Below, one piece after another: positions 3,056 through 14,227 of a stretch of DNA of 22,703 bases. The stretch comes from a virus. The stretch's first letter is position 1. Each line of letters starts with the position of its first letter. A program made the position numbers and the translations under genes. Where the stretch lies: positions 1 to 22,703 of the IMG/VR virus record IMGVR_UViG_3300037963_003456, one strand, 5' to 3'. A model generated the notes under the pieces. The model saw only the letters and a list, made by a program, of their open reading frames with translations. It was not told the DNA's origin and searched no databases.

Positions 3056-3465
3056 TGGCTGAATGTGCTGGTGGAGTCGGTAACGCTTTCAATTACCGTT
3101 TCACGGTCAATCATCACTTTCTCAATCAATCCAGGGCCGCTGTAGGTTTCTGCGAATTGGAACGCAGCGCCGGGTGTAGTTTGCACCCAAGTCGAGCGAC
3201 TTGAAAGGTTCAGTGACTTGGTGCCTGCTGATGGGCTAACGCCGCCGCCGGATGGTTCAACACCGGTCCCGCTAACGGAGTATTCAAAGCCTGTGCGGTA
3301 GGACTCAGACCGGATGCTTTCTTTGACGACTGTTTTTGTCTCTGTGTGAGACGTAACGACTCCTTGAGAGAAATTTGGCACCACGGGGACCGATTTTGCT
3401 TCTGGGGCGGCGAGAGCAATAACGCAAAGGACGCCCCACGCGATATAAAGACCCGTCCAGATCAT
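3052..3465 (-). CDS. Secreted beta-rich conserved cyanophage protein
   Basis: The 137-residue product has an N-terminal hydrophobic segment (residues 2-20, possibly cleaved near APEAKS or retained as an anchor). The rest is a Ser/Thr/Gly-rich beta protein with RTGFEYSVSGTGVEPSGG, AFQFAETYSGPGLIEKVMID and a C-terminal ESVTDSTSTFSQ. The SYSVSGTGV-type motif also occurs in the neighbouring upstream gene (SYSISGNGVD), so the two look like distant paralogues. Both ends use 4-base ATGA overlaps. Proteins of this kind occur as a set in cyanomyophages as I remember them. A secreted or envelope location is inferred; the function is unknown. Confidence 0.75.
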   Translation of the reverse strand: MIWTGLYIAWGVLCVIALAAPEAKSVPVVPNFSQGVVTSHTETKTVVKESIRSESYRTGFEYSVSGTGVEPSGGGVSPSAGTKSLNLSSRSTWVQTTPGAAFQFAETYSGPGLIEKVMIDRETVIESVTDSTSTFSQ

Positions 3466-3968
3466 CTAACGGTCAGCTCACTGATGACTTGACCGATTGC
3501 ACTTGTGTTGGCTCCGCCTGGGCTGATTGTGATGGTTCCAGCTGTGGTCACAGATCCACTAAGGCCCGTATTGGTGCCAGCAGCTGTGCTGGTTACGTCA
3601 CCAAAAGCGGGAACAGCGCCAACAGTCGGAGCTGACGTTGGAACGGTATCGCCTTGCGTGTAGCTAGTCGCAAAGCTAAATGAGTTGCCGGCGGTTTTTT
3701 GCGTTGCGTCTGGAATCGTGATTGCGTTTACGCCGTTAGTGGCTGCACCAAGTCCACCAAGAGCGTCAGCAGTGGTGTTGCCACCTGCTGTGACTGACGT
3801 ATCGACTCCATTTCCGCTAATGCTGTAGCTGTTTCCAACCCGAATCGCACGGCTTGAAGCAGCGCCAACATCGAGTTGCACTGAACTACTGATTCGGTGG
3901 GTTAAATCAGCCTTGGCAGGCAAAGCAGCTGCCAATGTGATTCCCAATACCAAAAGTGAGCGGTTCAT
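3462..3968 (-). CDS. Secreted Ser/Thr/Gly-rich conserved cyanophage protein
   Basis: The 168-residue product has a textbook signal peptide (MNRSLLVLGITLAAALPAKA, then DLTH). The mature protein is low in charge and rich in Ser, Thr, Gly and Ala, with RVGNSYSISGNGVD, SFATSYTQGDTVPTSAPTVG and a C-terminal GQVISELTVR. It resembles an extracellular beta-fold protein, and relatives beginning ADLTHxIxSSxQL are familiar to me from cyanophages. It is coupled to both neighbours by ATGA overlaps. A role in altering the host surface or in the virion is possible, but nothing in the sequence decides. Confidence 0.75.
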   Translation of the reverse strand: MNRSLLVLGITLAAALPAKADLTHRISSSVQLDVGAASSRAIRVGNSYSISGNGVDTSVTAGGNTTADALGGLGAATNGVNAITIPDATQKTAGNSFSFATSYTQGDTVPTSAPTVGAVPAFGDVTSTAAGTNTGLSGSVTTAGTITISPGGANTSAIGQVISELTVR

Positions 3969-5432: not shown

Positions 5433-5595
5433 GATTGAACGAAGCGTTAGAAACGTCCAGAACTGCACCGACGAAGAGCAACTAAAAATGATCTGCGCTT
5501 CGCTCGTGCGTCAAAACTTTCATCAATCAAAGCTGCTGAGCCAGGCCGTAGGTCGAATCGGTGAGCTAGACGCCAAACTCGCTTGCTGGGACTAA
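5380..5595 (+). CDS. Small conserved phage protein, unknown function
   Basis: The start could be ATG 5380 or ATG 5398 (MQVKPTHEELFEIERSVRNV); neither has a clear Shine-Dalgarno sequence. The product is mostly helical: KPTHEELFEIERSVRNVQNC, DEEQLKMICASLVRQNFHQS, AVGRIGELDAKLACWD. It resembles a family of short phage proteins I recall (KPTxEELxxIxRDV...QLxxMxVxxxxxxxQ...G-R-I-x-x-L) found near lysis or tail genes. It overlaps the upstream gene by 53 bases and shares CTAA with the convergent early gene, so two opposing transcription units end within 4 bases of each other. Confidence 0.65.
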   Translation: MGWATWMQVKPTHEELFEIERSVRNVQNCTDEEQLKMICASLVRQNFHQSKLLSQAVGRIGELDAKLACWD

Positions 5596-5756
5596 GAACC
5601 CTTGCCCAAAATCTTGGTGCGGTAGTACCTCACGCACGATTCGTAGAACCACCTGGCCTTCCAGTCATGCTTGAAGTAACGGACGGTCCCGCCGTGGCTG
5701 ACTTCCCAAACCAGCAAGCCGTCTTGCTGCACCTGTTTGATGGTTGGTTTTGTCAT
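5592..5756 (-). CDS. 54-residue early protein, unknown
   Basis: I chose ATG 5756 (MTKPTIKQVQQDGLLVWEVS) over a longer in-frame start because the preceding 30 bases are full of the block's repeat motif and the longer N-terminus (MTACLHRS) looks unrelated. The product is compact and aromatic (VRYFKHDWKARWFYESCVRY) and basic at the end (RTKILGKGS). The ATG is part of the 9-mer GATCTATGA. It is the last gene of the early block, 49 bases after ssb. No family is recognised. Confidence 0.6.
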   Translation of the reverse strand: MTKPTIKQVQQDGLLVWEVSHGGTVRYFKHDWKARWFYESCVRYYRTKILGKGS

Positions 5757-5805
5757 AGATCTGTGCAGGCAGGCCGTCATAGATTTGGCCTGCCCGATTT
5801 TTAGC

Positions 5806-6123
5806 TCAGAAGCTCATAGATCCCGCTTCTTGCTTTGGCGGCAATGTGAAGTCGGACACGTTCAGCTCCAGGCTCTTGCCCTCGCTGCCGTCTTTTTTCT
5901 CATAGATCCGCACTTTGGCTGAGCCAGCGACAGTGATGCGGTCGCCCTTGTGCAGGTAGTTCATCACGGTGTCGGCACGCTTGCCCCATACAGAACAGTC
6001 GATCCAGGTGGTCTCGTCTTTGCCGGTGCGTGCGGCGATGCTGAAGCTGGCAACTTGAGTGCTGCCAACTTCCTTGAGTTCAGGGTCACGGCCGAGGTTG
6101 CCGTGGGCGGTCATGTTGAGCAT
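5806..6123 (-). CDS. ssb: Single-stranded DNA-binding protein
   Basis: The 105-residue OB-fold protein has the SSB pattern: N-terminal NMTAHGNLGRDPELKEVGST, VASFSIAARTGK, TTWIDCSVWGKRADTVMNYL, KGDRITVAGSAKVRIYEKKDG and SLELNVSDFTLPP. It coats single-stranded DNA during replication and recombination. The usual acidic C-terminal hook (DDDIPF-like) that recruits host proteins is replaced by KQEAGSMSF, whose codons include a GATCTATGA copy. Its ATG overlaps the stop of the RHH gene (TAATG). The position beside an annealing protein and RusA fits a phage recombination operon. Confidence 0.9.
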   Translation of the reverse strand: MLNMTAHGNLGRDPELKEVGSTQVASFSIAARTGKDETTWIDCSVWGKRADTVMNYLHKGDRITVAGSAKVRIYEKKDGSEGKSLELNVSDFTLPPKQEAGSMSF

Positions 6124-6302
6124 TACTTTCCGTTGAAGAACTTGGAGATGATGGTGCTGAGCGCCATGTTGATCACGCCGTGATGGCGTTGTTCTGCGTA
6201 ATGGCGCAGCTGTTCGGCTAGCTGAGAGTCCAGCCGAACTTGGAAGTGATTAGAGCGGCGCTTGTCGTCCGCCACCGCTTGCTTGGTCTTTTCATCAGCC
6301 AT
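6123..6302 (-). CDS. 59-residue ribbon-helix-helix (Arc/CopG-like) protein
   Basis: The product is a basic N-terminus (MADEKTKQAVADDKRR) followed by SNHFQVRLDSQLAEQLRHYA and a second helix INMALSTIISKFF. A short beta strand with alternating polar residues (HFQVRL) followed by two helices is the RHH fold, which binds DNA operators as dimers. The ATG lies inside the last codons of the annealing-protein gene (8-base overlap) and the stop is coupled to ssb as TAATG. It is a candidate repressor for the palindromic operators in this window, but no link is shown by the sequence. Confidence 0.75.
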   Translation of the reverse strand: MADEKTKQAVADDKRRSNHFQVRLDSQLAEQLRHYAEQRHHGVINMALSTIISKFFNGK

Positions 6303-7044
6303 TGCGCTTGAAGTAATCGTTGATCCAGGTTTGATGTTTGACGGAGGTGATGGCCTCGGAGACTCTGCCGTTAGGAGGCAGAGGGAACTCAGCGGTAAAC
6401 GCTTCCATAAAAGCCTGCAGTTTTGCCGGCTCCATGTCTTCGAGGTTTGCGATCAGCAGCTTTCTGTCTTCAGGGTTGATCAGTTGATCTTTTGCCTTGA
6501 CGCCAGGAACGGCAGGCGTCGGCTCAGGCGTCATAGATCTTGCCTTCTCAGGCTTTTTCATAGATCTTGCAGGCTTGGGCTCCTCCTCCCGATGCGGGTT
6601 CTCGACCTCTTCGCGTGCCCACAACTGCCATGCCAAGCCGAATGCGGCGGCGGAAGCGGTGCAGAGGCAGCGCCGATGTGAGTCCGTCAGATCGCGGGCG
6701 CTGATCTTGTCAAAAGCAACCGCGTTGTTTCGGTTGTCCATGATGGCCTGCGGGAAATGCGGCGTTGTCTTGCCTTCGCTGCTGATGAAGTAGCCGACGA
6801 CGTAACCGCTGCCGTTTGGTGCCTTCCAAACGTGACCGCCGCCAGGAGCGCTAGCTAAGGCGAACTGCCAGCCTGGGGCATGTTCGTGAAGCAGGTGCAT
6901 TGTGCGGCACCAGTTCACATAATCAGCCTTGTAACTGCCAGACCCTTTTTGGCTTACGTCGTCTGTCGTGATGACATCGCCGAGGTTAGGAAATGGCGGT
7001 GATGGTGATGATGGCGCAGGGGGATTCGTGATTTCCAGAGACAT
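6295..7044 (-). CDS. Sak3-like single-strand annealing protein
   Basis: The first 30 of 249 residues are Pro/Ser-rich. The core (about 30-130) has SYKADYVNWCRTMHLLHEHA, GGGHVWKAPNGSGYVVGYFI, IMDNRNNAV and ISARDLTDSHRRCLCTASAA then AFGLAWQLWAREEVE. The last stretch matches the DUF1071/Sak3 signature as I know it (R-D-V-N-x-A-x-x-R-C-L-x-K...A-x-F-G-L-G-x-x-x-x-x-x-E-D). Such proteins anneal complementary single strands in phage recombination, working with SSB and an exonuclease, both encoded nearby. A charged linker (EEPKPARSMKKPEKARSM) contains two copies of the 9-mer 27 bases apart. The gene overlaps rusA by 59 bases. Assignment to another annealase clade is possible. Confidence 0.65.
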   Translation of the reverse strand: MSLEITNPPAPSSPSPPFPNLGDVITTDDVSQKGSGSYKADYVNWCRTMHLLHEHAPGWQFALASAPGGGHVWKAPNGSGYVVGYFISSEGKTTPHFPQAIMDNRNNAVAFDKISARDLTDSHRRCLCTASAAAFGLAWQLWAREEVENPHREEEPKPARSMKKPEKARSMTPEPTPAVPGVKAKDQLINPEDRKLLIANLEDMEPAKLQAFMEAFTAEFPLPPNGRVSEAITSVKHQTWINDYFKRNG

Positions 7045-7447
7045 AACGTCGTTGAGAAGTGAGGTGAACTATCTGGGCGTCATCGTCATAGACAACGCCT
7101 GTCAAAGCATCCTCTACAGCACGCACAAGTTTCGACAAGTCACCAATCCTCCCAGTGCAATGTTGGGGGGCTGATGGCTTGAGTTCGCCGTTGGTTCTGT
7201 AGTGAGCTTTGGGCCGGTTGAATACAAAGATTGCATCCATCCAGATTGCCTCCCCCATCATGGCATGCCAGCCCTCAGGAAGCAACTCCATGGCTAAATG
7301 TCTTACGTCTTGGCGCCATGGCTTGCATCGTTTTGATGACTCAACCATGACGCCCTTTCCGACGTGCCGCTTACTTCCTTGCGGCGCAGGTTTGCCGGGA
7401 ACTGTGAACTGAAAACTACTGAGGCAGTTGTGAGTAGGCGCGGTCAA
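6986..7447 (-). CDS. rusA: RusA-type Holliday junction resolvase
   Basis: The 153-residue protein has RusA features: FTVPGKPAPQGSKRHVG near the start, the WRQDVRHLA helix, WMDAIFVFNRPKAHY, then LSKLVRAVEDALTGVVYDDDAQIVHL. The Asp-rich DAL...VYDDDAQI segment carries the metal-binding catalytic aspartates of this family. RusA resolves four-way junctions made during recombination. I see no ATG; the TTG at 7447 is the only plausible start, because an upstream in-frame TGA closes the frame. It overlaps the previous gene by 32 bases and the annealing gene by 59, indicating tight coupling. The substituted VYDDD codons include a near copy of the block's 9-mer. Confidence 0.85.
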   Translation of the reverse strand: MTAPTHNCLSSFQFTVPGKPAPQGSKRHVGKGVMVESSKRCKPWRQDVRHLAMELLPEGWHAMMGEAIWMDAIFVFNRPKAHYRTNGELKPSAPQHCTGRIGDLSKLVRAVEDALTGVVYDDDAQIVHLTSQRRYVSGNHESPCAIITITAIS

Positions 7448-7619
7448 TGGCCGAGTTCAGCAACGCTTTAGCGAGCTTAGATGCAGAAAGTTTATTCTGT
7501 TCATACTCGATAAACTCGCCGCCGACTGAGACGTTTGTCATGTTGCCAGCCGTGGCTTCTGAAAGTGCTTTCAGTTTTTCGGCGCGGGACTGGTCTAATT
7601 CGAGGTTGATGGCCTTCAT
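7416..7619 (-). CDS. 67-residue early protein, unknown
   Basis: The product (MKAINLELDQSRAEKLKALS...) starts like a short helical DNA-associated protein and has an exposed middle (NMTNVSVGGEFIEYEQNKLS) and a C-terminal helix (ASKLAKALLNSAIDRAYSQL). An RHH-like arrangement is conceivable (NLELDQ strand, then helices) but not convincing. The ATG is embedded in GATCTATGA, and no Shine-Dalgarno sequence is visible in the 36 bases upstream, so the 9-mer may matter for its translation. It overlaps rusA by 32 bases. Confidence 0.65.
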   Translation of the reverse strand: MKAINLELDQSRAEKLKALSEATAGNMTNVSVGGEFIEYEQNKLSASKLAKALLNSAIDRAYSQLPQ

Positions 7620-7655
7620 AGATCAGGAATAATTTTGGAATGAAGCGCGTTCAGG

Positions 7656-7997
7656 TTAGGACATTTGCCCAAAATTGCCACGGCGCTTCTGTTCGCGCAG
7701 CTTGAAGAAGCCTCGTAGATCTGGGTACTGATCCATCAGATCACGCGCCGCGAACGCGGTGTAGTTGTTGTTGATCTTGAGGCCCAAGTCGCCTGTGCTG
7801 GTCCTTGTCTCCCAACGCAAGATATGAAAAAGGCCATCCATCGAATAGCGAGAATGGCCGGCGGTTTTCAATTCACGGGCAAGGCCGGCCAGCTGCAGTA
7901 ACAGGCCGGGGTGCTTGGCTTTGCATTTTTGCCACTCCAGGGCCAGCTTGTCGCTGACCGTAGAGCTAGAGAACAGGGGCAGATCAGAGGTGTCCAT
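7656..7997 (-). CDS. Conserved phage protein of unknown function
   Basis: This 113-residue protein has a recognisable conserved core: HSRYSMDGLFHILRWETRTS, LGLKINNNYTAFAARDLMDQ and PDLRGFFKLREQKRRG. The combination [RW]-E-T...FKxNNNYxxxYARxLMxxxPxLxGFFxxR is common in tailed phages and prophages as I recall it, with no established function. The protein has no membrane segment. Its start overlaps the preceding stop by 14 bases. The position amid recombination genes suggests a role in early DNA metabolism, by association only. Confidence 0.8.
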   Translation of the reverse strand: MDTSDLPLFSSSTVSDKLALEWQKCKAKHPGLLLQLAGLARELKTAGHSRYSMDGLFHILRWETRTSTGDLGLKINNNYTAFAARDLMDQYPDLRGFFKLREQKRRGNFGQMS

Positions 7998-8739
7998 GGG
8001 TAAGGCTCAGTTGCTGATGGATTGCGTATTTTTCGATATATCCAGGCGGTGCGCTTAAAACGCCGATGACCATGAAGGCGCGTCGTTGCGTGGCAAGATT
8101 GCCGATGATCATATATGGGTTGTTGTAGTCATAGATCTGTGCAAACGGGTCTACTTCGTTTTTTCTGAGGGCTTCATAGACGTCCCATGCAAGAAGCTGC
8201 TTGGCAAATGGTTTTACTTCGCCTTCGCACCGCCTTTTACCTCTGACCATCACCTTGTAGGTAGGAAACCAAATCCCAAGACCTGCCATGTATTCAGACC
8301 TTTCGATCTGCTTTTGATCTTTTTCAACATTTGGGTTAAAGTGCTTGATGTCAAAATCCAGCGTTTTCTTCTCAGGAATCAACAGGCCAACACTGAGTCT
8401 GTCGCTGTTCAGCTCTGACTCATATTTGTAATTTGACAAAATGCTTGCATGTATAGACCTCTTGGCAGCAGCATCTAAGGAGGCGCCTCGGCGGCGCAGT
8501 GTTTCAGCGTTCCAGGTTTCGTCTCTTGTGTCGTTTTGCAGCCCCTCTTTAGTCCCTTGAAAATCAAATACAGACCAACGCTTCAAGACCGGCGATTTGC
8601 CTCTTGTGTAGGGAACGCATAGACGTAAAAATTTCTGCTCTGCGGGCTGATATGCAATCGTGCAGATGTGCGTTCCCTTTTGGCGCCCGCTGATAATCCT
8701 TGCCTGTGAGATGCAAACGCAATCCTTAAAACTGGACAT
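7984..8739 (-). CDS. 251-residue protein, possible OB-type domain, unknown
   Basis: I chose ATG 8739 (MSSFKDCVCISQARIISGRQ); a TTG 12 bases upstream is the alternative. The N-terminus resembles the start of the 'dual OB' type of domain (K-D-x-x-C-I-x-x-A+...K-G-x-x-x-C-x-A... followed by an R/L-R-x-x motif), but this is weak. Later parts contain TLDFDIKHFNPN, YMAGLGIWFPTYKVMVRGKR and CEGEVKPFAKQLLAWDVYEA, a mix of strands and helices without a recognised catalytic signature. It overlaps the upstream DUF4326 gene by 14 bases. The QIYDYNN codons carry a copy of the 9-mer. I do not assign a function. Confidence 0.7.
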   Translation of the reverse strand: MSSFKDCVCISQARIISGRQKGTHICTIAYQPAEQKFLRLCVPYTRGKSPVLKRWSVFDFQGTKEGLQNDTRDETWNAETLRRRGASLDAAAKRSIHASILSNYKYESELNSDRLSVGLLIPEKKTLDFDIKHFNPNVEKDQKQIERSEYMAGLGIWFPTYKVMVRGKRRCEGEVKPFAKQLLAWDVYEALRKNEVDPFAQIYDYNNPYMIIGNLATQRRAFMVIGVLSAPPGYIEKYAIHQQLSLTHGHL

Positions 8740-9523
8740 TCTGCTGTTCAATCATCGCGGTTAGGTACATGCCATGGCAGCGGGCCGGGTAGCACCAGCA
8801 GCCCAAAACCTTGCCTCGTAGCTCGTTCAGACGGTTGTGAAGGCTGAACTTCCTAGGGAAGAAGATCTCATACGATTCACAGACCGTGTCTCGGTCGCCG
8901 TCAGGCCCCATCTCAAAGGGGTTGCCCCAGTCGCTGGTGCGATCAATGCGAACGAAGCGATCGGTCTTCCTGGCCCATGTGAGCAGCGCCCGGTCTGTGT
9001 CCTGGTGCATGTTGGCCACAACGGTGCCGCCAGCTTCAACAATGGCCTTGCGCTTCAGCTCGTCTTCTGTCCATTCGTATTCAGGCCGAACCTGCTCAAC
9101 CGCACGAGTGACGATGGCCTCAGTGAGCTTGCCTTGGTTTTCTTCTTTGGCAATGTCCTGAGCCTTCGTAAAAGCGGCTGCCAAAGTTTCGTCGTCGTTT
9201 TTGACCGAGACAAGTGGACGAAGATGAGCTTCAGGCATGTCGCCAATCTGAAAGTTACGCCCAGATGGGCGTAACTCCTTCAAGCTTGCTTCGACCTGCG
9301 CGGCAGCCAGTTGCTTTTGGATCGTCCGAGCATGCAGCTCAGGAAACTCCTCCATGCAGCAAGCCGCAAAACTGCGATAGCCAAGCGCCTTCCAGCCCTT
9401 GCGCCGGTCTAGGTCATAGATCCTGGCGCGGACCGTGTTGATTCCTTTTTTGATGTCGTCAACGGCTTCACGAGCCTCGCGCTCGTTCATGTCAACGGTT
9501 GCGGTGATGTCGATGGTTGTCAT
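8726..9523 (-). CDS. Helical DNA-binding-like domain fused to DUF4326
   Basis: The 265-residue protein has two parts. The N-terminal ~150 residues are helical (REAREAVDDIKKGINTVRAR, RKGWKALGYRSFAACCMEEF, ARTIQKQLAAAQVEASLKEL, then ALVSV/AAAF...EENQGKLTEAIV), resembling ParB- or DUF3102-type DNA-binding regions. The C-terminal ~95 residues fit DUF4326: RFVRIDRTSDWGNPFEMGPD, GDRDTVCESYEIFF, then LNELRGKVLGCWCYPARCHG with its conserved CWC...CHG. DUF4326 is common in phages and has no firm activity; the Cys/His cluster may bind metal. The 4-base ATGA overlap couples it to the upstream gene. Confidence 0.75.
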   Translation of the reverse strand: MTTIDITATVDMNEREAREAVDDIKKGINTVRARIYDLDRRKGWKALGYRSFAACCMEEFPELHARTIQKQLAAAQVEASLKELRPSGRNFQIGDMPEAHLRPLVSVKNDDETLAAAFTKAQDIAKEENQGKLTEAIVTRAVEQVRPEYEWTEDELKRKAIVEAGGTVVANMHQDTDRALLTWARKTDRFVRIDRTSDWGNPFEMGPDGDRDTVCESYEIFFPRKFSLHNRLNELRGKVLGCWCYPARCHGMYLTAMIEQQNVQF

Positions 9524-10002
9524 TTGACAGCCTCAGGAGTGGATTCGGTCTGTTCAGCGGTTGCCTCAGCTTCCGCCTTTTGCTTGTCGAAGGCTTCGCG
9601 GGCTTGATCGCGGGCGAACTCAAGCAATGTGCAGTGCTCGCGTGCCTCAATCTTTTTGACCTTGGCTTCGGAGCGCTTCTCGACGACCATCGCGCAAGCG
9701 GCAACGGCTGCCTCTTCGATGTCGTCGCCGGCTTGGCCGTACTGGGAAAACCAAATCTCGCTGTTGTCAGTAGTCAGGTCTTCGAGTGCCTTGTCTTGCT
9801 CTTCGCTGATGTCTTCGTGTTTCCACTGCTGCTGACGCACAACGTCAACGGCCATCATCAAGCGGGTCACGCGGCGCAGGGCATGGGTGACTTCAATCTC
9901 GGCTTGCTTGGCCTCTTTCCACATCTCTTGGTGGCGTTTGAGAGTGGATTGATAGGCGTCGTCTTGATCGAGGTAAGCGTTGAAGGCTTGGAAATCGGAC
10001 AT
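9520..10002 (-). CDS. 160-residue coiled-coil-like early protein, unknown
   Basis: I used ATG 10002 (MSDFQAFNAYLDQDDAYQST) because a regulated promoter and leader hairpin lie directly upstream; the longer frame would run through them. The product is almost wholly helical and charged, with heptad-like stretches (TLKRHQEMWKEAKQAEIEVT, VVEKRSEAKVKKIEAREHCT, AREAFDKQKAEAEATAEQTE). An acidic middle contains DISEEQDKALEDLTTDNSEI. No family is recognised. As the first gene after the promoter, it heads the transcript that includes the DUF4326 fusion, rusA, the annealing protein and ssb. Confidence 0.75.
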   Translation of the reverse strand: MSDFQAFNAYLDQDDAYQSTLKRHQEMWKEAKQAEIEVTHALRRVTRLMMAVDVVRQQQWKHEDISEEQDKALEDLTTDNSEIWFSQYGQAGDDIEEAAVAACAMVVEKRSEAKVKKIEAREHCTLLEFARDQAREAFDKQKAEAEATAEQTESTPEAVK

Positions 10003-10074
10003 GGTTTTGTGGGGCGAGGTGTTCCGCCTCTCAGCGGTATGCCAAAGGTAGAGCACCCATGGCATACATGTCAA
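10003..10074 (-). promoter_or_regulatory. Diverged copy of the operator/leader module, minus strand
   Basis: Read on the minus strand: TTGACA (10069-10074, overlapping the upstream gene's stop), a 17-base spacer containing TATGCCAT, a poor -10 (CTACCT, 10046-10051), then a second half-operator TTTGGCATACC (10036-10046), and a leader hairpin GAGG-CGGAACA-CCTC (10016-10030) before ATG 10002. The operator halves and the hairpin followed by A-rich ACC-ATG resemble the plus-strand modules at 12.6-14.3 kb. The -10 is weak, so the promoter call is tentative. Confidence 0.5.
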
Positions 10075-10211
10075 CCCTTCCGTTTCGGCTTTGCCTTTTT
10101 TCTCTGTGCCTTCGGCTTCCTTGGCCCCCGTTTCTTCAGTGCTGCCAGCGTTTCTAAGTAGCCGGGGGGCTCAGGCACGCCCCCCTTCTTCAAGATCTCA
10201 AACCAGTTCAT
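10071..10211 (-). CDS. 46-residue basic protein (MNWFEILKK start)
   Basis: It is coupled to the upstream zinc-ribbon gene by an ATGA overlap. The product starts MNWFEILKKGGVPEPPGYLE and ends with a Lys/Arg-rich tail (ALKKRGPRKPKAQRKKAKPK then RKG). Short phage proteins starting MNWFEILK/MNWYEILK are common in my memory and appear near replication genes; their function is unknown. The basic tail suggests nucleic-acid or virion association. The stop codon is part of the TTGACA of the following promoter. Confidence 0.65.
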   Translation of the reverse strand: MNWFEILKKGGVPEPPGYLETLAALKKRGPRKPKAQRKKAKPKRKG

Positions 10212-10444
10212 GCGGCCTGCAGGCGTTCAAGCATTCGCGCCTTGACCCCAAACTCAGCCTTTGGCCTGCCGGTGCCGCGCTCCGTTGGCTTGTAACACCA
10301 TTCATCATCTGGGACGCTGACTTCTGCTGTGGCCCAGACGTGGTCGCAGGTCTTGCACTGCCTGCGGCGGCTGATGGCTTCTTGGCTTGTATGCCGTGAC
10401 TCCAGAACGCAAATCCAAGACGTTCCGCACTTTGGGCATTTCAT
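10208..10444 (-). CDS. NrdR-like zinc-ribbon protein
   Basis: Starting at ATG 10444, the 78-residue product is MKCPKCGTSWICVLESRHTS then EAISRRRQCKTCDHVWATAE. Two CxxC pairs (CPKC and CKTC) plus VLESR...ISRRRQC...W.T.E match the zinc-ribbon N-terminus of NrdR, the regulator of ribonucleotide reductase genes. The ATP-cone domain of NrdR is absent; the rest (TERGTGRPKAEFGVKARMLE) looks like a short helical DNA-binding extension. It is therefore a stand-alone zinc ribbon, probably a small transcription factor or DNA-binding protein. The ATG is part of the 9-mer GATCTATGA, 7 bases after the nuclease stop. Confidence 0.7.
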   Translation of the reverse strand: MKCPKCGTSWICVLESRHTSQEAISRRRQCKTCDHVWATAEVSVPDDEWCYKPTERGTGRPKAEFGVKARMLERLQAA

Positions 10445-10451
10445 AGATCGA

Positions 10452-11135
10452 TCACCAGGATGGCAACGTGACTGAGTACCGGCCCCAGGCTTCCTCCCAA
10501 TAAGTCCAGGCGCTCTCCGCATCTGTGTTCAGGATGCGGGTTTCGCCGGGTCCACAGACCACGGTCACCAAGTCGGTCACCAAGAGCGATGGGTGGAGAG
10601 ACGCCAGCATTGACTGATAGGCAGCCAACTGCGCGTCTGCTGGCTTTCGGGCCGCTAATGCTCTTTTACTTGACACGCTCTTCAGATCGCCAAGTATCAC
10701 CCGATTGTCTTCACCAGATGTAGGGGAGACCCTGAGCAGAAAGTCAAACGAGCCCGCGCAGTTCTTCTGTTTGTCATAGACCGCGTATTCCGTCGCCAGC
10801 ACCTCGACGCCTTTGAAAATGGGGTGATCCAGCAGCGGGTCGATCCAGTCCGCCCAGCAATCGTCATAGATCACCCCGTGGCCGTTTTGGAGCTTCATAG
10901 ATCCCAGATATTGGTCCAGGGCCTTGTGGCAGGCGTTGCCCCTGGCCTCCCACCCGTCGGGGCCGCCCTTGGTCCGCTCGATCGCCTCGCGTTTGCTCGG
11001 GGACATGTCGAAGCTGAGAACCTGCGTCACGCTGTGCGGCACCCATAGACCGTCCTTCCTGTATCTGTGCGGGCCAGGGAAGAACTCAAGGCCGGGGACT
11101 GGTTCGAGCATCAAGGGGTTGACGTGTTGCGACAT
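10452..11135 (-). CDS. PD-(D/E)XK exonuclease (Cas4/RecB-like), recombination partner
   Basis: Start chosen at ATG 11135 (MSQHVNPLMLEPVPGLEFFP); a GTG at 11186 would overlap the divergent gene. The 227-residue protein has the PD-(D/E)XK exonuclease layout: GNACHKALDQYL (early His), VLATEYAVYD (Glu), CAGSFDFLLRV (Asp), VILGDLKSVS (D-x-K) and DAQLAAYQSML (Q-xxx-Y). This family resects DNA ends, giving single strands that SSB and the Sak3-like protein then use, so the module is functionally complete with RusA. Two exact copies of the 9-mer fall in GSMKLQNG and GVIYDDCW. It is the first gene of the early block, divergent from the RHH gene. Confidence 0.85.
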   Translation of the reverse strand: MSQHVNPLMLEPVPGLEFFPGPHRYRKDGLWVPHSVTQVLSFDMSPSKREAIERTKGGPDGWEARGNACHKALDQYLGSMKLQNGHGVIYDDCWADWIDPLLDHPIFKGVEVLATEYAVYDKQKNCAGSFDFLLRVSPTSGEDNRVILGDLKSVSSKRALAARKPADAQLAAYQSMLASLHPSLLVTDLVTVVCGPGETRILNTDAESAWTYWEEAWGRYSVTLPSW

Positions 11136-11144
11136 CGTGCCACT

Positions 11145-11157
11145 GTTGTCATACAAC
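11145..11157. promoter_or_regulatory. Dyad between divergent early operons
   Basis: GTTGT-CAT-ACAAC is a perfect 5-bp inverted repeat in the 35 bases between the nuclease ATG (11135) and the RHH-protein ATG (11171). It is the only symmetrical site in this short divergent gap, so it is a candidate autoregulatory operator for the RHH protein encoded next to it. No good -35/-10 pair is visible. Confidence 0.45.
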
Positions 11158-11170
11158 GTCCACCCGTTGA

Positions 11171-11719
11171 ATGCCTTCTGTCTCACTACGTCTCACAGAT
11201 GCTCAGGTCTCATGGCTAGACGCCCAGACCAAGCAATTCAGGAACCGCTCTGATGTCATGCGGGATCTCATCGACTCACAGATGGGAAACCTTGACAGCC
11301 CCGGTACGCTGATAAAACCGAGCCTTGAAGGGGAGAAGGTTTTATCTCTAAAGACTCCTATAACTAAAGAGTCTCCTATATCTAATAACACCCTTTCTGG
11401 GGGTTCCAAGGGGGAAGAGAAAAAGGACCTCTACGAAAAAAAGACCCTCGGGGATGACCTCATCCCCAACGACCTCCTCGACTGTGACCAACTCCTCCGT
11501 GAGTTCTGGTCTGTAAAAAAGGGCGTCCGATCCGAGCGCGTGTTTCATCGCGTGATTAACAAGCTCAGAGAGTGGACCCCCGCCGTTCGCAGATCTGCCC
11601 TAGAGGCTGCCGCCAATGCTGGGTGGCCTGACGTCTACGAACCCCGCCAGCTCGGCGGCCGCCAACAACAGCAGGCCACCGACTGGGACGCCCTCGAAAA
11701 ATCACTCCCGAAGTTCTGA
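11171..11719 (+). CDS. RHH protein with C-terminal helical domain, possible initiator or regulator
   Basis: The N-terminus MPSVSLRLTDAQVSWLDAQT followed by RNRSDVMRDLIDSQMG is a typical ribbon-helix-helix (CopG-like) domain. A polar linker (about 40-100) contains the repeated TPIT/ESPIS segment. The C-terminal domain (DQLLREFWSVKKGVRSERVF, RRSALEAAANAGWPDVYEPR) resembles C-terminal parts of phage replication-associated proteins that I recall as 'FW..K.GKRS...GW...Y.PR'. DNA binding is likely; replication initiation is only suggested. The linker is encoded by a locally AT-rich, repeat-containing segment. The stop overlaps the next ATG (TGATG). Confidence 0.7.
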   Translation: MPSVSLRLTDAQVSWLDAQTKQFRNRSDVMRDLIDSQMGNLDSPGTLIKPSLEGEKVLSLKTPITKESPISNNTLSGGSKGEEKKDLYEKKTLGDDLIPNDLLDCDQLLREFWSVKKGVRSERVFHRVINKLREWTPAVRRSALEAAANAGWPDVYEPRQLGGRQQQQATDWDALEKSLPKF

Positions 11720-12114: not shown

Positions 12115-12373
12115 TGACAAGACACTCCGGCAACTTTTGCAACGCGGTATCGACAACGGCTGGTGGACCATCGACCATCTGGACCGACCAAGTCCCGGCC
12201 TTGAACTCCTCAGGCGCGAGGCCATTCGCCACCCTGACCCCACGATCCGCGCCGCCTTGTCCGAAGGCATGAAGCCACATCGGAACATGCTGCGCGAACT
12301 TGGCCCACCGGAACGACCCGAAGCCAAACCCTCCCCCCGCGATTTCACCGAACCCCCGACCCTTCGTTTCTGA
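12107..12373 (+). CDS. 88-residue protein, unknown
   Basis: ATG 12107 lies 8 bases before the end of the preceding gene, giving a tight overlap. The product starts MFDDKTLRQLLQRGIDNGWW followed by TIDHLDRPSPGLELLRREAI; W-T-x-x-x-L-D-x-P-S is reminiscent of small proteins in other cyanophages, without function. The C-terminus is Pro-rich (PPERPEAKPSPRDFTEPPTL). The stop overlaps the next ATG (TGATG). Confidence 0.7.
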   Translation: MFDDKTLRQLLQRGIDNGWWTIDHLDRPSPGLELLRREAIRHPDPTIRAALSEGMKPHRNMLRELGPPERPEAKPSPRDFTEPPTLRF

Positions 12374-12663
12374 TGACCAAGCTCTCCCGCATCGAGTTCA
12401 ACGCCACCCCTGAAGAGCGCAAGCGCCTGGACATCGAGGCCGCTGCCCATGGCATGAGCCGACAGGAACTGATCCGCGAGCGCGTTCTAATGCGGACACC
12501 CGACACCCCGAAGTTCCGCACCGATAAGGGCGCGATTGATCGGGCCGTCGAAGCTGTCACCCGTCAACATGTCGGACTGCCCAGGCACGCCTTAGAGCCG
12601 ATTGTCTGTACTGTCTTGTGCTCTCTTGTGGCAGACAGTGAAAGAGGTGGCATACCTGATTGA
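12373..12663 (+). CDS. RHH-like DNA-binding protein
   Basis: The 96-residue product starts MTKLSRIEFNATPEERKRLD then IEAAAHGMSRQELIRERVLM. A short strand with alternating residues (SRIEFNAT) followed by two helices, the second beginning GMSRQELIRERV, is the CopG/RHH arrangement. The C-terminal half (AIDRAVEAVTRQHVGLPRHA) is helical and ends in a low-complexity tail. It is the third RHH-type protein in the window and lies directly upstream of the operator-controlled cassettes, which makes it the best-placed candidate for their repressor. The end overlaps the first half-operator and the -35 of the following promoter. Confidence 0.7.
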   Translation: MTKLSRIEFNATPEERKRLDIEAAAHGMSRQELIRERVLMRTPDTPKFRTDKGAIDRAVEAVTRQHVGLPRHALEPIVCTVLCSLVADSERGGIPD

Positions 12664-13909: not shown

Positions 13910-13990
13910 GGCCAGGGGTTGTGCCCTTCCCTATGGTATGCCATACTATGAGCAACGGGGGGAGACCTCCACATTCACCTCATCTGATCC
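13910..13990 (+). promoter_or_regulatory. Promoter-operator-leader module C
   Basis: GGCCAGGGGTTGTGC (13910-13924) contains a -35 (TTGTGC), a 17-base spacer and a -10 CATACT (13942-13947). The palindrome TATGGTATGCCATA (13932-13945) overlaps the -10. The leader hairpin is GGGGG-GAGA-CCTCC (13957-13970, one G-T pair) followed by CACCTCA and ATG 13991. The 15 bases containing the -35 are identical to those of module D. Confidence 0.85.
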
Positions 13991-14227
13991 ATGGCCCGCT
14001 TCAGCCCACGATCTGCAACCGTCATCGCCGGCATTTTCGCCGTCCTCGACTCCGGCGCTTTTATTGACCGCGCCTTCATCGTGAACCGTTTCATCGAGGG
14101 CGGCTTTGCTGCCCACCTCGCAAAGCGCAATGCCGACAGGCTCATCGCTGCAAACACCGACATCCAGCACCCCTCGCGCTGGTCCATCTGGGGAACCGGC
14201 GACCGCCTCACTTACAGCAAAGCCTGA
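13991..14227 (+). CDS. 78-residue protein, unknown
   Basis: The product starts MARFSPRSATVIAGIFAVLD, then GAFIDRAFIVNRFIEGGFAA, and ends IQHPSRWSIWGTGDRLTYSK. It is basic and moderately hydrophobic, with no clear transmembrane helix. Nothing is recognised. It forms a one-gene transcription unit between operator module C and its own terminator, like an independently expressed phage accessory gene. Confidence 0.7.
   Translation: MARFSPRSATVIAGIFAVLDSGAFIDRAFIVNRFIEGGFAAHLAKRNADRLIAANTDIQHPSRWSIWGTGDRLTYSKA

Follow-up and report, generated by a model that had tools for sequence, protein, structure and literature searches.

The window analysed here is the entire IMG/VR entry IMGVR_UViG_3300037963_003456, a linear fragment of 22,703 bases from a longer viral genome, whose early leftward gene block carries a repeated nine-base word, GATCTATGA. 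The recognised products of the block are an exonuclease (PHROG 298), an NrdR-like zinc ribbon, a DUF4326 protein, RusA, the single-strand annealing protein Sak, a small Arc-like protein and SSB. By terminase the closest isolates, at 71–75% identity, are Cyanophage KBS-S-2A, Synechococcus phage S-H1 and the Prochlorococcus phages MED4-117 and MED4-184, and KBS-S-2A is also the closest isolate by DNA within the block. Coordinates of the features are collected in Table 1.

The word occurs in 11 exact copies on the minus strand between 5753 and 10903, with none on the plus strand and none elsewhere in the window, where dinucleotide shuffling gives a chance count of 0.05 and a maximum of 1. Throughout the block it is oriented in the sense of transcription. 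An earlier note, made from the sequence alone, had listed these copies together with four near copies; on recount all eleven coordinates are exact, the near copies are real, and the absence from the other strand and from the rest of the record holds. The inner heptamer TCTATGA is found 15 times on one strand and not at all on the other. Matches with one mismatch outside the block (3548 on the minus strand; 13215, 16553, 18864 and 22191 on the plus strand) are at about chance level. The word has no dyad symmetry, and the flanks of its copies are dissimilar, except that C or A is favoured directly after it. Among the literature matches listed for GATCTATGA itself, only unrelated subjects were found.

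Eight of the 11 copies are internal to genes, and the remaining three (7616, 10441 and 5753) each include a gene's ATG, as had been noticed before. The internal copies are read in two ways, four as Ile-Tyr-Asp/Glu (10864, 9414, 8129 and 5900) and four as Ser-Met (10895, 6558, 6531 and 5814), and each of the four Ile-Tyr-Asp/Glu sites within the block is spelled with the word. In 20,000 synonymous-codon shuffles of the 12 genes of the block, a control that the earlier note had proposed, the mean number of in-gene copies was 0.48 and the maximum 4, against the 8 observed.

Relatives were gathered by IMG/VR scans with six proteins and two DNA patterns. About 24 contigs, all from one cyanosiphovirus clade with Sak identity down to 73%, share the word at the same sites, and for every copy, near copies included, almost all clade contigs that span the site have it at the same codon. 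In Sak, the aligned word site is 100% identical, while nearby third codon positions average 79%. The clade contigs are likewise one-stranded; the single exact copy on the reverse strand, in L087, lies in another gene and runs along the coding direction of that gene. Persistence in homologous genes, which had been suggested as a check, is thus borne out, and extends to a start-codon copy kept at a 40%-identical allele of the zinc-ribbon protein. Copies also appear in swapped-in segments, without homology to the window, that lie between the genes for the zinc ribbon and the 67-aa protein: ATCTATGA is present in a helicase-like gene and at the start of the next gene in L087, and at a stop codon and a junction in L104 and L061. 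These amount to 4 independent copies against ~0.2 expected (by arithmetic from 0.2 per 5.7 kb). In L087, L073, L065 and L286 an extra copy precedes the exonuclease gene by ~90 bases and is antisense to the 182-aa gene. The interval from the 184-aa to the 67-aa gene is an apparent hot spot of module exchange (L087 2631–5343, L061 776–3841, L104 1–1665), occupied by the DUF4326 and 255-aa genes in the window, by the helicase-like gene in L087 and by other genes in L061 and L104.

Sister clades that share the gene order (Sak 53–67%) have neither the GATCTATGA set nor a substitute strand-locked word in their early blocks, and the word is absent from all four isolates. The earlier note had looked to close relatives for the word at the same sites; the clade keeps these sites, whereas the sister clades and the isolates are without the set. 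As the early blocks of the sister clades yielded no comparable word, a separate word in each lineage is not supported. At homologous positions the sister clades mostly have other bases, with Thr in place of Ile in SSB, Val-Tyr-Asn in place of Val-Tyr-Asp in RusA, Val-Cys-Asp in place of Val-Tyr-Asp in the exonuclease and Lys-Lys-Ala-Lys in place of Arg-Ser-Met-Lys in Sak. The sole site in common is that at 10864, found in six sister-clade contigs as Ser-Ile-Tyr-Asp, and this site is probably ancestral. Since the other sites mostly differ, most of the set was gained at the base of one clade. The alignments indicate that this gain partly cost amino-acid changes, made by independent substitutions, and because some sites arose in this way, selection seems to act on the word as nucleotide sequence. 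Copies would tend to occupy a pre-existing ATG or Ile/Val-Tyr-Asp, where few mutations sufficed.

Three further candidates were considered and set aside. The 184-aa, 182-aa and 131-aa genes are nearly clade-specific and were candidates for a partner of the word, but L211 and L212 own diverged forms of all three and lack the word. The repeated words of L022, L023, L030 and L171 are closely spaced arrays, and the multi-copy contigs outside the clade (L092, L097, L136, L111 and L140) mostly contain short, unrelated repeats coding for Ile-Tyr-Asp/Glu.

An origin of the set by chance, codon usage or amino-acid selection alone would account for 10864, which the sister clades share, and for 9414, where Ile-Tyr-Asp/Glu is conserved as protein. 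It has a negligible probability given the excess over the codon shuffles, the use of two coding frames as well as start codons, the gains by replacement of Thr with Ile, Asn with Asp, Cys with Tyr and Lys-Lys-Ala with Arg-Ser-Met, and the recurrence of the same sites in ~24 contigs. The statement of the earlier note that amino-acid selection alone is insufficient is upheld by the same observations. The word set is real, selected, clade-specific and unexplained by coding, and the comparisons support GATCTATGA as a dedicated, transcription-oriented set of sites selected at the nucleotide level.

Table 1. Word copies and associated features, with positions in the window.
Feature	Position	Strand	Remarks
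Early leftward gene block with all copies	5592..11186	-	exonuclease, zinc ribbon, 184-aa, DUF4326, 255-aa, 113-aa, 67-aa, RusA, Sak, Arc-like (59 aa), SSB, 54/62-aa
Copy 1	10895..10903	-	exonuclease gene, Gly-Ser-Met; kept by all covering clade contigs, absent from sister clades
Copy 2	10864..10872	-	exonuclease gene, Ile-Tyr-Asp; kept by all covering clade contigs; also in 6 sister-clade contigs
Near copy GGTCTATGA	10774..10782	-	exonuclease gene, Val-Tyr-Asp; TCTATGA kept in all clade contigs but one; sister clades Val-Cys-Asp
Copy 3	10441..10449	-	holds start codon of zinc-ribbon protein (MKCPKCG...); kept in L061 despite 40%-identical protein allele
Copy 4	9414..9422	-	DUF4326 protein, Ile-Tyr-Asp; relatives conserve Ile-Tyr-Asp/Glu, mostly by other codons
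Near copy CGTCTATGA	8174..8182	-	255-aa gene, Val-Tyr-Glu
Copy 5	8129..8137	-	255-aa gene, Ile-Tyr-Asp
Copy 6	7616..7624	-	holds start codon of 67-aa gene; kept in 12/12 clade rows; sister clades have different bases before the same ATG
Near copy TGTCTATGA	7086..7094	-	RusA gene, Val-Tyr-Asp; sister clades Val-Tyr-Asn or other residues
Copy 7	6558..6566	-	linker of Sak annealing protein, Arg-Ser-Met; kept in all clade rows; nearest sister clades Lys-Lys-Ala-Lys
Copy 8	6531..6539	-	Sak linker, Arg-Ser-Met; kept except for one-base losses in L142 and L061
Copy 9	5900..5908	-	SSB gene, Arg-Ile-Tyr-Glu; Ile of the clade mostly Thr in sister clades
Copy 10	5814..5822	-	SSB C-terminus, Gly-Ser-Met; in loop of 6-bp hairpin AGAAGC/GCTTCT, 5808-5830
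Hairpin CGGGCAGGCC-AAATCTATGAC-GGCCTGCCTG	5766..5796	-	between SSB and last gene; near copy AATCTATGA (5777-5785) in loop
Copy 11	5753..5761	-	holds likely start codon of last gene of the operon
Iteron-like repeats, ~18 nt	11343..11396	+	inside divergent 182-aa gene, beside block

In the available sequence the word set is confined to one operon. The next 5.6 kb of the window beyond the operon contain no copies, and the 13.7 kb of IMGVR_UViG_3300037847_002095 that lie beyond the last gene and reach the tail genes lack TCTATGA in both orientations, so that the confinement first seen in the window is also found in relatives. Over ~95 kb of overlapping clade sequence beyond the operon, TCTATGA occurs 6 times against 5.7 expected, both strands together.

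The iteron-like repeats in or next to the 182-aa gene probably mark a replication origin adjoining the block. In the relative L023 the equivalent position (3448–3548) is occupied by five 22-nt iterons, the 131-aa gene travels with the iteron-bearing 182-aa gene, and no initiator for the repeats was recognised by Pfam or PHROGs. A possible origin is thereby placed at the right-hand end of the block; the strand of the word would then be the lagging-strand template of a leftward fork, and the word could be a primase or assembly site. Such a fork, however, would pass the end of the operon, where the copies cease both in the window and in IMGVR_UViG_3300037847_002095, and a replication signal of this kind is very improbable. 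The earlier note had offered a strand-biased recombination or replication signal as one option; of all its options this is nearest to the nick-site analogue discussed below, while the replication-signal form itself is rated low.

Other elements of the window and its relatives are distinct from the word. The palindrome TGGCATGCCA has four exact copies in the window (7261, 12674, 13456 and 14273), of which three fall in the region of small rightward genes, and a variant, TGGTATGCCA, at 13934. Five related copies are present in L056 and five copies of GGCATACCA in L057 and L173, and the set is operator-like. L030, a relative with a DUF4326 protein, contains eight direct repeats of GTTAGGTGTG at 13957–14143, with a spacing of 25–26 bases. 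The 96-aa product of 12373–12663 in the window weakly matches NikA-like mobilization proteins, at E 5.7e-6, which narrowly misses the Pfam cut-off.

Homologues of the last gene (5592–5780) begin at its second ATG, which makes 5753 the start copy and places the near copy at 5777 24 bases upstream. The latter is part of the 11-nt loop of a hairpin with a 10-bp stem, where most relatives have the exact word. In the diverged subclade L105/L216/L145 the sequence has changed and a 9-bp stem is still possible by different pairing, as read by eye; single-sequence folding recovered this stem for L145, while for L105 and L216 it is not the optimal fold. At this place, directly ahead of the start ATG of the last early gene, sister clades (e.g. 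L147 and L148) carry an intrinsic terminator, whereas the clade hairpin has no T tract and holds the word in its loop. Presentation of the word in hairpins as a general rule is not supported, since copies other than those at 5777 and 5814 follow no such pattern. A role as a sigma-70-type promoter was rejected: promoter-like sites are not in excess, and the start-codon copies would place the start site of the promoter inside the gene.

The hairpin with its re-formed pairing is one of the observations that fit a function in RNA. Here GAUCUAUGA in the early mRNA would be read by an RNA-binding protein, a small RNA or an endoribonuclease, of phage or host, which would stabilise, silence or route the transcript. 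The sense orientation throughout, the abrupt end at the end of the operon with chance level beyond, the copies in the unrelated swapped-in genes of L087, L061 and L104, and the extra copy upstream of the first gene in L087, L073, L065 and L286 agree with such a tag. However, the copies overall are no more unpaired than composition-matched sites (p = 0.75), no candidate reader was found, and a general mRNA nuclease predicts avoidance of TCTATGA outside the operon, which was not seen (observed/expected ~1). RNA-level tagging is the main rival to nicking, and is itself unlikely. If the word is read in RNA, it would be an operon-wide mRNA tag, for which we know of no phage example.

The earlier note compared the set with stoperators, at which a repressor bound to the double-stranded word would block elongating RNA polymerase in one direction. 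In Cluster A mycobacteriophages (L5, Bxb1), 20–30 sites of 13–14 bp, bound by the lysogeny repressor, are asymmetric, repeated and oriented with transcription, and their consensus varies between related phages (PMC6550527). The word resembles them in asymmetry, repetition and orientation, and several small ribbon-helix-helix-like proteins are encoded. That part of the comparison holds, but the analogy as a whole is poorly supported. Cluster A sites are spread genome-wide, whereas GATCTATGA, at nine bases, is shorter and stricter, mostly intragenic and restricted to a single operon. Stoperators depend on a lysogeny repressor, and among the ~30 window proteins scanned, from an incomplete genome, neither an integrase nor an immunity repressor was recognised; no relative of the Sak protein was found in 84,980 bacterial genomes, and the hairpin pattern gave no integrated relative either. 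KBS-S-2A has been reported to be without integration elements (PMC3751600), and sister clades that lack the word also encode the operon's small Arc-like proteins. Stoperator function is improbable.

A further alternative is an undescribed operon-wide address tag, in which a linear word of 8–9 bases would run along the whole early transcription unit in any frame or gene, with a clade- or host-specific reader of the sense strand and a function unlike that of nick sites or stoperators. This is somewhat unlikely. Some probability also falls to mechanisms outside those considered here.

The most likely mechanism, put forward tentatively and at less than even confidence, is strand-specific nicking. 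In Pseudomonas phage tf, 14 nicks have been mapped, all on one strand and at the strict 9-mer TACT^RTGMC; three single-base variants were checked and none was nicked (PMC3517423). The same source gives 8–9 such words, on one strand, for LUZ24, PaP3 and MR299-2 and a different nick word for phiKMV-like phages; it speaks of a putative nickase for the tf type, and the nicks of T5, known since the 1960s, are among few phage examples, with no established function. Recounting the tf-type words gave 14 in tf, 9 in LUZ24 and 9 in PaP3, all on a single strand and most of them within the early half. According to word and gene coordinates, the start codon falls inside the word three times in tf, compared with 3/11 here. 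The main word of LUZ24 and PaP3, TACTATGAC, and the clade word GATCTATGA(C/A) have the common core CTATGA(C), and sharing six bases with these words on the same strand is expected of ~1% of random 9-mers.

By this analogy GATCTATGA would be a strand-specific recognition word across the early leftward operon, selected as nucleotide sequence, at which a candidate nickase of phage or host would cut the coding (minus) strand as GATCT^ATGA. The cuts would produce localized single-strand interruptions like those of tf and might serve recombination, repair or injection of the early region. That the word is read as DNA and nicked is our inference, as are the position and purpose of the nick. The ends of contigs weakly favour nicking: 5 of the 21 clade-contig ends or gap edges within the block lie at most 12 bases from a copy, with 1.4 expected (p ~0.01; 1.1% of site-set rotations), and reduced read coverage at nicks might cause such breaks.

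Several points weigh against nicking. The contig-break test is small and was devised after seeing the data; the five breaks near copies fall 0–6 bases upstream of the word instead of at the predicted cut, and two of them are edges of N gaps. The nick-word analogy was found by reading, and the shared-core statistic is post hoc and comes from a comparison with several words: a match of six bases to any word on the ten-word comparison list is expected for 7.5% of random 9-mers. No nickase gene was identified in the clade, and no protein is common to the clade and tf, LUZ24 or PaP3 at tblastn E < 1e-3. In tf the nicks are mapped and 2/14 lie in late genes, whereas here the sites are known from sequence and the word ends exactly with one operon.

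The GATCTATGA set points to marine cyanophages as possible carriers of single-strand site systems. Being dense, strictly conserved and restricted to one clade with word-free sister clades, it opens the question of phage nicks to comparative genomics.

Among known repeats of other kinds, the Start-Associated Sequences of Cluster K mycobacteriophages are 13 bp long, lie 3–7 bases before start codons and have a Shine-Dalgarno core (PMC3203893). Like the word, they are asymmetric, essentially in one orientation, limited to non-structural genes, kept when genes change and of unknown function. GATCTATGA differs in that it contains the ATG in three genes, is internal elsewhere and has no AGGAG for pairing with 16S rRNA. 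The 17-bp repeats of Cluster O mycobacteriophages (PMC4351075) are also a repeated, clade-conserved word of unknown function, partly in coding regions, but they are palindromic and not oriented with transcription. The nick words of tf, LUZ24 and PaP3 belong to another phage lineage and host and differ in the first three letters, the consensus TACTRTGMC not being matched by GATCTATGA, which is moreover limited to a single operon at about one copy per 0.5 kb. In both cases, however, a strict 9-mer without dyad symmetry occupies one strand, mainly in early genes, with most copies intragenic and some at start codons, with flanks that differ and with positions conserved between relatives.

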